The position numbers were made by a program, and so were the translations under genes. 64,000 nucleotides of DNA. Source: Rhodospirillaceae bacterium (lineage in GTDB: Bacteria; Pseudomonadota; Alphaproteobacteria; CACIAM-22H2). The notes under the pieces are model-generated. The model was not told where the DNA came from. It was given only the letters and a program-made list of their open reading frames with translations, and ran no database searches. Positions 59,139 to 64,000 of the stretch are shown piece by piece. The stretch spans positions 1 through 64,000 of the forward strand of contig JALHMR010000022.1 in assembly GCA_022843945.1 (NCBI GenBank). Direction: 5' to 3'. Position 1 is the stretch's first letter. Every line of letters begins with the position of its first letter.

Positions 59139-61289
<2,151 letters not shown>

Positions 61290-61313: not shown

Positions 61314-64000
61314 ATGGAACAGGGATCCGGTCCTCGTAACGTCCTGCGCGTCGTCCAGCCCGAGGCCGATTCCCAGATCGTCACCACCAGCGGCGAAGAG
61401 GCCGCGCCGCGCCCCCGGGCGCCGGCGAGCTACATCGCCGGGCTCGTCGTCTCCGCCCTCTGGCTGGCGCTCGCCGGCTGGTACATCCAGACCCATGTCG
61501 GCTGGTCGAGCCTCGACGCGCTGCTGCCGCACGAGCTGGGCGCGGCGCTGTCCGGAATCGCCACGCCGCTGCTCGTGCTCTGGCTGGTGATCGCCTTCGT
61601 CGATCGCGGCCGCGAGTTCAAGGTCACGGCGCGCGCCCTGCATCGCGAACTGCAGACCCTCAGCTACCCGGCCGAGGAGACCGACACGCGCGTGCGCACG
61701 GTCGCCGAATCCCTGCGCGAGCAGGCCCGCAACCTGAGCGAGGCGTCCGAGATCGCCGCCCGGCGCCTGACCGAGGGTCGCGACGCGCTGCATACGCAGA
61801 CCACCGAGCTCGCCACGGTGTCCGACCAGTCGACCATGCGCGCCATGCAGGTCATGGCGACCTTGCGCCGCCACGCCGACGGGCTGGAGCGCATCTCGGC
61901 CCTGCTGGCGACGCGCGTACAGACCGTCGAATCAGCGGTCGGCCAGCAGGCCGAGGCGCTGACCAATGCCTCGGAGCGCGCCGTCTCGCAGTCGCGGGCC
62001 ATCAACGCCGCCCTGCGCCAGCAGATCGAGGACCTCTCGGCGGTCACCGAGCGCACCGCGGCCAGCGCCGATGCGATCCGGGGTGCCTTGCGCGACCAGT
62101 CCCACGATCTCGCCCAGACCACCGAACGCGCCGTGGCCCGCGCCGAGGAGATGCGCTCGGCGCTGGGCCAGCAGACCGCCGACCTGATCCAGGCGACCGA
62201 CCAGGCCATGGCCCGGGCGCGCGATCTGGGCCAGGAATTTGGCCATTTCGCCGAGACTATGGGCCGCGCCGCCGAAAGCGCCGGCGAGCGCTCGGGCGAT
62301 GCCAGCGACCGCCTGGAGAAGGCGGCGCAGACCCTGTCGCAGTTCGCGGCCGAGCTGGTCACGCGCAGCGAGGCCGCGGAGACCGTGCTGCGCCGGCATA
62401 TCGGCGAGCTGGTGCTGGCGGCGAGCCAAGCCTACGAGCGCGTGCAGAGCATGGGCGATTCGCTGCGCGGCCGCACCGAGGAGCTGGGAGTCGCGGGCGT
62501 GCGGGCCGGCGAGCTGGCCGCCCTGCTGGGCGGCGAGACGCAGAACCTGGCCACGGCGCTCGAGCGGGTGGGGGCCCGCGCCGAGGCGACGACCGAGACC
62601 GTGCGCCGGCAGGGCCAGGAGCTCGGCGGGCTGGCCGACCAGGCGACGGCGCGCGTGCGGGCGGCCGCGGAATCCTTCCGGCGCCACGCCCAGGACATGC
62701 AGAGCCAGGCCGGCGACGGCCTGGCCAAGCTGGGCGATCTGCGCGCCTCCTTCGAGGAATCGGCGCGGACCATCACCGCAACCACCGAGACGGCCAACAC
62801 CAAGGCGCAGGAGGTCGGTGACGCCTTCCGGCGCGATGCCGAGACACTGGCGGCGGCGGCGGATGACGCGCGGGCCCGGGCGCTGAGTGCGGGCGAGCAA
62901 CTGCGCCGCGAGGCGACCGAAGTCAGCAGCGCGACCGCCGCGATGGTGGCGGGCGCCGAAACGGCGCAGGCAGCCCTGCAGCGCGAGGCGGCGACGGTTG
63001 CCGCCGCGGCCACACAGGCTGGCGACAAGGTCGATGCGCTGGGCGCGACGCTCCGCGACCGGACGGGCGACATCGAAGCCGCTTCGGCGCGCCTCGACGA
63101 GGCGCATACGTTGCTGGGACGCGAGGCGCGCCGCCTGACCGATACGCTCGACGAAGCGACCGAGCGCGTCGACACGGCACACGCCCTGTTCCGCACGCGC
63201 ACCGACGAGATGGGCGCCGAATCCGACGAGGCCCTGGTGCGCACGCGCGCCGCCACCGACGGGTTGAAGGCGCAGGCGGAAGCCATCGCCGAGGCGGCCA
63301 ATCGCGGGCTGTCGCGCGCCGATGCCTTGACTGCGTCCATCGACCAGCGCAGCCGTGACGTGGAAATCCTGGCGGATCGTGCGGTCCAGCGCCTCGATGG
63401 GGTCGCCGATACGGTGCGCGAGCGCGTCGACGATCTCGGGCGCGTGGCCGCCAAGGCCAGCGATGCCGGCGAAGCGTTGCGTGTCGAGGCCGAGGCGCTG
63501 GCGCGGGCGACCGCCACGTTGGGAAGCGAAACGGCGACGACGCAGGCGAGCCTGCGCGTCGATACGGAGAGCCTGGCCGCGGCGGCGGCCCGGGCGACGG
63601 CCGATCTCGGCGCCCTCGGGGCGACCTTGCGCGGGCGCACCGCGGATATCGACCAGGCCTCCGCCAAGCTCGGCGAGCACAACCAGCGTCTCGACGCCGA
63701 CGCCCAGCATCTGGCCGGCGCGCTGGATCACGCCGCGGCGCGCGTCGTGGCGACCGGCGAAACGCTGCGCCGCCAGGCCGAGGACCTCGTGCTCAGCGCC
63801 GACCAGGGGCTGGCGCGCGTGCGCACGGCGGGCGATGGTTTCCGTATCCAGACTCAGGAGCTGGTGCATGCGGCCGACCGCGGCCTTGCCCGTGCCGGCG
63901 ATCTGGGCGAGGCCTTCGCCCAGCGCAGCCTCGACATCGATGCTGCCGCCGACCGGGCCAGCGAGCGCATCAACCGGCTGGGCGACGCCATCCGTGACCG
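61314..64000 (+). CDS. Membrane-anchored coiled-coil protein with long repeats (partial)
   Basis: This frame from ATG 61314 (AGGGG ahead) stays open to the window edge, about 895 residues. Two hydrophobic helices near residues 40–62 (YIAGLVVSALWLALAGWYI) and 76–98 are followed by a very long Ala/Arg/Glu-rich coiled coil. Within the coil, residues from about 524 repeat with a 192-residue period (see the repeat entry). The layout recalls polarity proteins such as TipN, and a TipF-like protein is encoded 6 kb away, but I see no specific TipN signature. It starts 24 bases after the mutase gene. Confidence 0.8.
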   Translation, partial: MEQGSGPRNVLRVVQPEADSQIVTTSGEEAAPRPRAPASYIAGLVVSALWLALAGWYIQTHVGWSSLDALLPHELGAALSGIATPLLVLWLVIAFVDRGREFKVTARALHRELQTLSYPAEETDTRVRTVAESLREQARNLSEASEIAARRLTEGRDALHTQTTELATVSDQSTMRAMQVMATLRRHADGLERISALLATRVQTVESAVGQQAEALTNASERAVSQSRAINAALRQQIEDLSAVTERTAASADAIRGALRDQSHDLAQTTERAVARAEEMRSALGQQTADLIQATDQAMARARDLGQEFGHFAETMGRAAESAGERSGDASDRLEKAAQTLSQFAAELVTRSEAAETVLRRHIGELVLAASQAYERVQSMGDSLRGRTEELGVAGVRAGELAALLGGETQNLATALERVGARAEATTETVRRQGQELGGLADQATARVRAAAESFRRHAQDMQSQAGDGLAKLGDLRASFEESARTITATTETANTKAQEVGDAFRRDAETLAAAADDARARALSAGEQLRREATEVSSATAAMVAGAETAQAALQREAATVAAAATQAGDKVDALGATLRDRTGDIEAASARLDEAHTLLGREARRLTDTLDEATERVDTAHALFRTRTDEMGAESDEALVRTRAATDGLKAQAEAIAEAANRGLSRADALTASIDQRSRDVEILADRAVQRLDGVADTVRERVDDLGRVAAKASDAGEALRVEAEALARATATLGSETATTQASLRVDTESLAAAAARATADLGALGATLRGRTADIDQASAKLGEHNQRLDADAQHLAGALDHAAARVVATGETLRRQAEDLVLSADQGLARVRTAGDGFRIQTQELVHAADRGLARAGDLGEAFAQRSLDIDAAADRASERINRLGDAIRD
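62882..64000 (+). repeat. 192-residue internal repeat within the coiled-coil protein
   Basis: Two stretches 576 bases apart align in frame. The first has AGEQLRREATEV near 62890 and LGATLRDRTGDIEAAS at 63039; the second has AGEALRVEAEAL and LGATLRGRTADIDQAS at 63615. A further pair (NRGLSRADALTASIDQRS and DRGLARAGDLGEAFAQRS) keeps almost the same spacing. The second copy is cut by the window end, so the number of units is unknown. Confidence 0.8.

Follow-up and report, generated by a model that had tools for sequence, protein, structure and literature searches.

What does a 192-residue repeat signify in a very long coiled-coil protein, and is 192 residues the period at which the protein is built? 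The question arises at the end of a 64,000-nucleotide stretch of Rhodospirillaceae DNA (the window; bases 1–64000 of contig 22, within a 5.4-Mb assembly), where a gene leaves the window with its reading frame still open. A sequence-only reading of the window noted in-frame segments 576 bases apart that align over most of their length, and it proposed that so long and well kept a period points to recent duplication or to a spacing requirement, such as a molecular ruler.

A rod of 25-residue units

Following the gene past position 64,000, as that reading had recommended, gives a frame that opens at 61314, ends at contig base 65951, and specifies a complete product of 1545 residues. By its sequence, the protein begins with a conserved domain that contains two hydrophobic helices, continues as a rod of 25-residue units, about 50 in all, and ends in a conserved helical C-terminal domain. 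The rod spans residue 106 to about residue 1400, approximately 1290 residues. The features discussed here, in window coordinates, are the following.

59139..61289, + strand: upstream gene, judged from its sequence to be putatively methylmalonyl-CoA mutase-like (scpA); it ends 24 bases 5' of the start codon and stays upstream in many relatives
61314..64000, + strand: coding sequence, first 895 codons, running on to contig base 65951
61314..61718, + strand: conserved N-terminal domain, residues 1–135, with an LLPHELG motif between the two hydrophobic helices (alignments A2 and A5)
61422..61499, + strand: first putative membrane helix, residues 37–62 (a model helix; membrane nature judged from its residues)
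61545..61601, + strand: second putative membrane helix, residues ~78–96, the first part of model helix 72–116 (boundaries by eye)
61629..64000, + strand: rod of 25-residue units, residues 106–895 in the window (seam 3-4-3-4-4-3-4)
62304..62891, + strand: module A, residues 331–526, the weakest copy (lags 196 and 388)
62487..62549, + strand: shortened 21-residue unit, residues 392–412 (phase parse)
62892..63467, + strand: module B, residues 527–718, the fastest-changing of the three (self-match and genus comparison)
62988..63563, + strand: 192-residue block, residues 559–750, absent in L023, a homologue from another genus (its edges can slide within the repeat)
63075..63137, + strand: shortened 21-residue unit, residues 588–608, matching the unit at 780–800 (phase parse)
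63438..63500, + strand: shortened 21-residue unit, residues 709–729 (phase parse)
63468..64000, + strand: module C, residues 719–910, its end outside the window (self-match)
63651..63713, + strand: shortened 21-residue unit, residues 780–800 (phase parse)

In the structure model of the N-terminal domain, helices are predicted at residues 37–62, 64–69, and 72–116, followed by one continuous helix (mean pLDDT 86.3, pTM 0.49). The C-terminal model, made on the sequence of a congener, shows a confidently predicted helical domain joined to a long helix (mean pLDDT 90.3, pTM 0.71). Foldseek returned 237 matches to this domain at E ≤ 10 and none at E ≤ 0.001, and the best VIA-align Z, 6.4, is shared with many helical bundles; we therefore assign no fold, and these results do not point to a new one either. 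Pfam recognizes no family in the full 1545-residue protein up to E 0.1; DUF948 and the other Pfam matches of the window-truncated frame were all below cut-off and are gone with the full protein.

The gene lies between scpA upstream and a convergent downstream neighbor (L004, 5482–8172) that is presumably secA. A relative of scpA is found at 10 of the 15 other loci of one set and at 11 of the 38 non-Rhizobiales loci of a second, counts that come from overlapping locus sets in which several contigs are short. On the − strand, an open frame at window positions 61932–63998 (688 residues; 867 on the contig) is likely a by-product of high-GC, repetitive coding sequence. Contig 68 of the same genome holds a further gene for this C-terminal domain, diverged in sequence (L078, 1–1695; E 2.4e-16); it is cut off at the contig start and sits on a long branch of the C-domain tree.

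Within the rod, residues of about 526–704 align without gaps to residues 718–896, exactly 192 residues (576 bases) further on, with 40% identity. This is the best ungapped 178-residue self-match in the rod, with a score of 1.79 per residue. Shuffled sequence had been named in advance as the yardstick for such a match. Specifically, the best score among 200 full shuffles, taken over all lags and 178-residue segments, was 0.42, and 200 shuffles within the columns of a 25-residue parse reached 1.52 at best, with a mean of 1.29. The match thus stands above every shuffle of both kinds, and the alignment at 576 bases is confirmed. The stretch LGATLR-RT-DI--AS, singled out beforehand, is its best block (15 of 25 residues identical). 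The similarity begins near 62890, slightly downstream of the 62882 first given, and the second copy does leave the window, since module C ends beyond 64000. At the DNA level, the copies are 47–60% identical per 75-base block. Tandem Repeats Finder reported just four short rows, of period 12, and a DNA-level tandem array was therefore rejected.

The 192-residue period is real, but it is not the basic one, since a lag of 25 residues underlies it. Autocorrelation of the rod peaks at lag 25 (0.88, against a shuffle mean of -0.44 with sd 0.05), with its multiples also high, and lag 192 scores -0.11 over the whole rod versus 1.77 within the stretch that had drawn attention. Thus, 25-residue units replace a simple 192-residue period, and the general remark that coiled-coil repeats are usually short holds here also because of this unit. 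In the phase parse, about 50 units fill residues 106 to 1400, with poorly parsed stretches at 192–198, 541–554, and 1408–1417. The hydrophobic columns, as we read the column table, run 3-4-3-4-4-3-4, that is, 7+7+11 residues in seven turns, and four-residue skips shorten the 25-mer to a 21-mer at residues 394, 588, 710, and 780. Eight units, six 25-mers and two 21-mers, make up the 192 residues. Two weaker lags hint at a third, older copy, module A, at about residue 331: lag 196 scores 1.37, which is within the null range, and lag 388 scores 1.50, a value equaled by 1 of 200 column shuffles.

Modules and their history in the family

The duplication that had been proposed finds backing in the homologue of another genus, from which a 192-residue block is missing; its supposed recency does not survive. 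At third codon positions, identity between the copies is 40%, and composition alone predicts 41%. A congener's protein (L091; 77% identical, 1548 versus 1545 residues, one inner gap of one residue) displays identical lags of 192, 196, and 388. Because third-codon identity is at background and the congener shares the copies, recent duplication is rejected.

The shorter homologue, L023, comes from another genus of the family. It is 1355 residues long and 45% identical, and it lacks the equivalent of residues 559–750; apart from this, the alignment has some gaps close to the N terminus, a four-residue gap, and a single-residue gap. Between the congeners, module B is 63% identical, module A 82%, and module C 74%. 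Similarity to the second module of L023 is 33% for B (38% for the B of the congener) and 43% for C in both species. Module B, the fastest-changing and less like the second module of L023 than C is, therefore looks like the extra copy relative to L023.

A third genus, in records labeled Tagaea, Telmatospirillum, and Azospirillum, has forms of 1780 and about 1980 residues. Four long–short pairs, aligned at gap costs of -14/-0.3 that favor few long gaps, differ by 200 residues around residue 1000: as a single gap in one pair, and in the other three as two gaps (68+132, 68+132, and 89+111) separated by four or five residues. That alignment set leaves out the rows of L035 (2776 aa) and L030 (1892 aa), which are in wrong reading frames. 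Self-comparison of the 1979-residue form gives lags of 200, 400, and 600. Against the 1780 form, at gap costs of -25/-0.1 that likewise favor few long gaps, the inner gap is 200 residues for the present protein and 400 for L023, with additional gaps of 4 to 17 residues. In our reading of these lags and gaps, L023 would have two modules, the present protein three, the 1780 form four, and the form of about 1980 residues five. Comparison among the three genera thus shows rods that differ by whole eight-unit modules, as aligned, between conserved ends. Two further genera (L027 and L030), aligned to the present protein at the same -25/-0.1 costs, show scattered gaps that are not module multiples. 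Unequal exchange between older copies is the probable source of new modules, and the evident constraint would be the keeping of coiled-coil register, not exact length.

Homologues in Kiloniellales (L110, L099, and L109) have 29-residue repeats. Those of L110 are very well kept (4.57 per residue at lag 87), which suggests a young expansion.

Homology to RgsE and the seam of the rod

Of 387 genomes of the class (at least 90% complete and drawn evenly), 149 contain a match at E ≤ 0.001 to the C-terminal profile, which takes in a few rod residues. A tblastn search of a plasmid collection matched a Sinorhizobium meliloti protein (E 7e-12, 39% identity over 123 residues) that is 2089 residues long and adjoins petABC. 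We take it to be RgsE because a passage in PMC7327166 gives RgsE the same length, 2,089 residues. Searched against a small set of frames (23 loci), profiles built from 16 C-terminal and 13 N-terminal domains, each from the protein's own family plus one outside row, match this RgsE at E 1.7e-35 and E 4.4e-7, respectively. Of the Rhizobiales rows, only 19 of 42 are picked up by the N-domain profile, compared with 30 of the 37 remaining rows. Because the profiles of both end domains match, the present protein is, by profile, a distant homologue of RgsE at both ends.

The resemblance to RgsE and GPR extends to two N-terminal membrane helices (predicted here) and a very long helical cytoplasmic part; the homologous N- and C-terminal domains were compared with RgsE alone. 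Several features differ. PF01442 (Apolipoprotein A1/A4/E) matches 12 stretches of RgsE and none of the present protein, and we therefore file the latter as a distant homologue rather than as GPR proper. The best lags of the RgsE rod are 22, 11, and 44, against 25 here; rhizobial seams lie above 3.63 residues per turn, against 3.565 here; the gene neighbors of RgsE are different; and typical rhizobial hosts of RgsE/GPR lack MreB, which the present host has. RgsE homologues reported from Rhodospirillales and Emcibacterales (PMC7327166) are probably the same group as the present protein, and the passages describing them mention no 25-residue unit or modules. Those passages state that RgsE homologues outside Rhizobiales may serve another role, and that no other Rgs proteins were found there, Rhodospirillales included (PMC7327166). 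In a literature search with most subscription papers outside its coverage, "25-residue repeat" and "coiled coil" were not found together, and, among the occurrences listed, no repeat term was paired with TipN, RgsE, or growth pole ring.

A gene annotated with an Hpt domain lies divergently beside the rgsE-type gene in S. meliloti (L086, 2123–2491) and in Sphingomonas (L087, 3652–3945). A relative of the S. meliloti Hpt protein is present at 35 of 42 Rhizobiales loci; the seven without it are all Aureimonas records, and one more Aureimonas record has it. The L086 record (CP090106.1) is titled plasmid pSymB, yet it is 3.7 Mb long and has petABC beside rgsE, and so it looks like a chromosome under the wrong label. 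Record L114 (CP051228.1), titled Mesoflavibacter (Bacteroidota), falls next to Aestuariispira and Curvivirga in the tree, a placement that has support, and is probably mislabeled.

How do rod periods vary among relatives? From 553 relatives, 80 named loci were kept, and 79 could be scored (L113 was dropped). Multiples of 11 give the best lag in 36 of the 42 Rhizobiales rows; five of the other six have a multiple of 29, and one has a multiple of 18. Of the 37 rows outside Rhizobiales, 25 peak at a multiple of 25, three at a multiple of 29, three at a multiple of 11, and one at a multiple of 18; two peak at 69 and one at 47, and two rows are too short. These best lags, like the period labels of the tree rows, are maxima taken without a significance test, and some are weak (e.g., the multiples of 11 in L124 and L127). 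The period of the hydrophobic seam divides Rhizobiales from the others better than the best lag does: in the 77 relatives long enough, it is 3.639–3.667 in 42 of 42 Rhizobiales rows and 3.562–3.625 in 35 of 35 others. Assignment to Rhizobiales was manual and followed the record titles, supplemented by the tree for L128 and L147, and the rows are not independent, with many close relatives and some genomes in both locus sets. A second set comprises 38 rods and overlaps in part with the first by genome; in it, seven rods on the Rhizobiales side (two named, five by tree) have 3.654–3.666, and the other 31 have 3.547–3.625. Cut into thirds, the rods split less cleanly: the last third drops to 3.596–3.614 in four of the seven Rhizobiales-side rods, and L082, from the non-Rhizobiales side, reaches 3.66 in its middle third.

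A passage in PMC4786415 puts a straight helix at 3.63 residues per turn, with lower values left-handed and higher values right-handed. Because the seam values lie on either side of 3.63, the split predicts opposite supercoil sense in Rhizobiales and in the others. The Kiloniellales rods, at 3.624–3.625, would be nearly straight. Alternatively, rhizobial repeats may be lipid-binding amphipathic helices instead of coiled coils. The split rests on one tree boundary and therefore, on this tree, counts as one evolutionary event. The tree of the C-terminal domain (74 rows, 135 columns, midpoint root) has many open forks, and its bootstrap is not settled; three short rows, exact duplicates, and hand-picked near-copies were left out of an initial 117, and we use from it the Rhizobiales cluster and the protein's own family only.

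A proposed scaffold at the cell pole

We infer that the gene product is probably a membrane-anchored cytoplasmic scaffold at the cell pole and distantly homologous to RgsE of Sinorhizobium and GPR of Agrobacterium. The notion is that the two N-terminal helices would form a hairpin in the inner membrane, that the rods would associate into a slightly left-handed coiled coil, and that the C-terminal domain would bind partners or other chains. With a helix rise of 0.15 nm per residue, the rod would extend up to about 190 nm. The protein would then serve as a polar landmark or organizer. The host genome encodes MreB (E 4.9e-153), MreC (E 2.0e-36), and a DUF2497 protein, of PopZ type. Given these three, a TipN-like landmark role is likelier than the polar-growth role of GPR in rhizobia that lack MreB.

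Support for a polar scaffold comes from the end-domain matches to RgsE together with the action of GPR and RgsE at the growing pole, as described in passages of PMC8262873 and PMC7327166. The 25-residue period here and in relatives, the module differences, and the MreB, MreC, and DUF2497 genes also support it. The reading is weakened by the other role that PMC7327166, in the passage cited above, allows outside Rhizobiales, by the partial reach of the N-domain profile, by the absence of PF01442, by the different neighbors, and by the scattered gaps in the two further genera. Mixed deletion results for GPR, and the description of both ends of GPR and TipN as disordered in a passage of PMC13170164, weaken it as well. 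Specifically, as excerpted from PMC8262873, GPR without its last 221 residues did not complement and gave round cells; removal of 332 residues was less harmful, with cells still abnormal; each truncated protein still formed rings in some assays; and the authors draw attention to low-complexity sequence that lies between the two deletion ends. The C-terminus thus matters in GPR, and the role of the C-terminal domain is not clear-cut, because the longer deletion is the milder and rings form in some assays.

A comparable polar coiled-coil scaffold would be TipN of Caulobacter crescentus (passages in PMC10127582, PMC8546619, and PMC13170164), which differs in length, at 882 residues (PMC13170164). 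GPR is called similar to TipN in a passage of PMC8546619. The DUF2497 (PopZ-type) family is common to Caulobacter vibrioides and the present genome, and no Caulobacter appeared among the 80 loci kept of 553 relatives in one scan of genome contigs.

That the protein is a strict GPR/RgsE orthologue, with the rhizobial task of organizing peptidoglycan synthesis at one growing pole, seems unlikely. Both end domains, the overall layout, and the very long rod are what such an orthologue would share; however, the genome has MreB and MreC, the rod has a different period and no apolipoprotein matches, the gene context differs, and Rhodospirillales have no other Rgs proteins in the account excerpted from PMC7327166. 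A physical basis for the module size is possible though doubtful. On this account, about 200 residues would make one full turn of a 25/7 supercoil, leaving the C-terminal domain unrotated relative to the anchor. The block differences of 192, 200, and 400 residues agree with this, and at 3.63 residues per turn (the value in the PMC4786415 passage), 200, 196, and 192 residues come to 0.90, 1.01, and 1.11 supercoil turns. The outcome nevertheless depends strongly on the helix value, falling to 0.44–0.67 turn at 3.60 and rising to 1.21–1.40 at 3.65. Ancestral modules are common to the three genera, so their size may be plain history, and relatives have other super-periods (69 in L112 and L030; 160 and 171 in L120).

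We consider quite improbable a register-coded spacer that would step by one turn (eight units, about 29 nm) with orientation kept, its repeat rewritten from 25 to 11 at the base of Rhizobiales; that rewrite would turn the supercoil from left- to right-handed alongside the passage from MreB-based to polar growth. There is very little chance that the protein is SMC-like or ZorA-like, or an ordinary alanine-rich coiled coil with no special repeat. Weak coil matches do occur (SMC_prok_B, 29.4 bits; ZorA1, 34.2 bits), and both identities were rejected because the matches lie in the coil only. The SMC match covers only model positions 685–983, and a score over the cut-off of 567 bits, with an ATPase head, was not found. 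The ZorA matches are confined to the rod, and PADLOC found no match up to E 0.01 in residues 1–135, hence no MotA/ExbB/TolQ-like membrane domain there. The repeat outscores both types of shuffle, which argues against an ordinary coiled coil.

For a polar scaffold of this family, the comparison bears on what the rod is for. An apolipoprotein-like character has been ascribed to GPR and RgsE, and their rod has prompted the suggestion of a role in lipid metabolism. Because the present homologue keeps both ends and builds its rod to a different scheme, repeats of the apolipoprotein type probably do not provide the common function of the wider family, and the conserved ends are the better target. 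The Rhizobiales seam split, together with length changes by whole modules, opens to experiment the question of whether scaffold length, register, or handedness matters.
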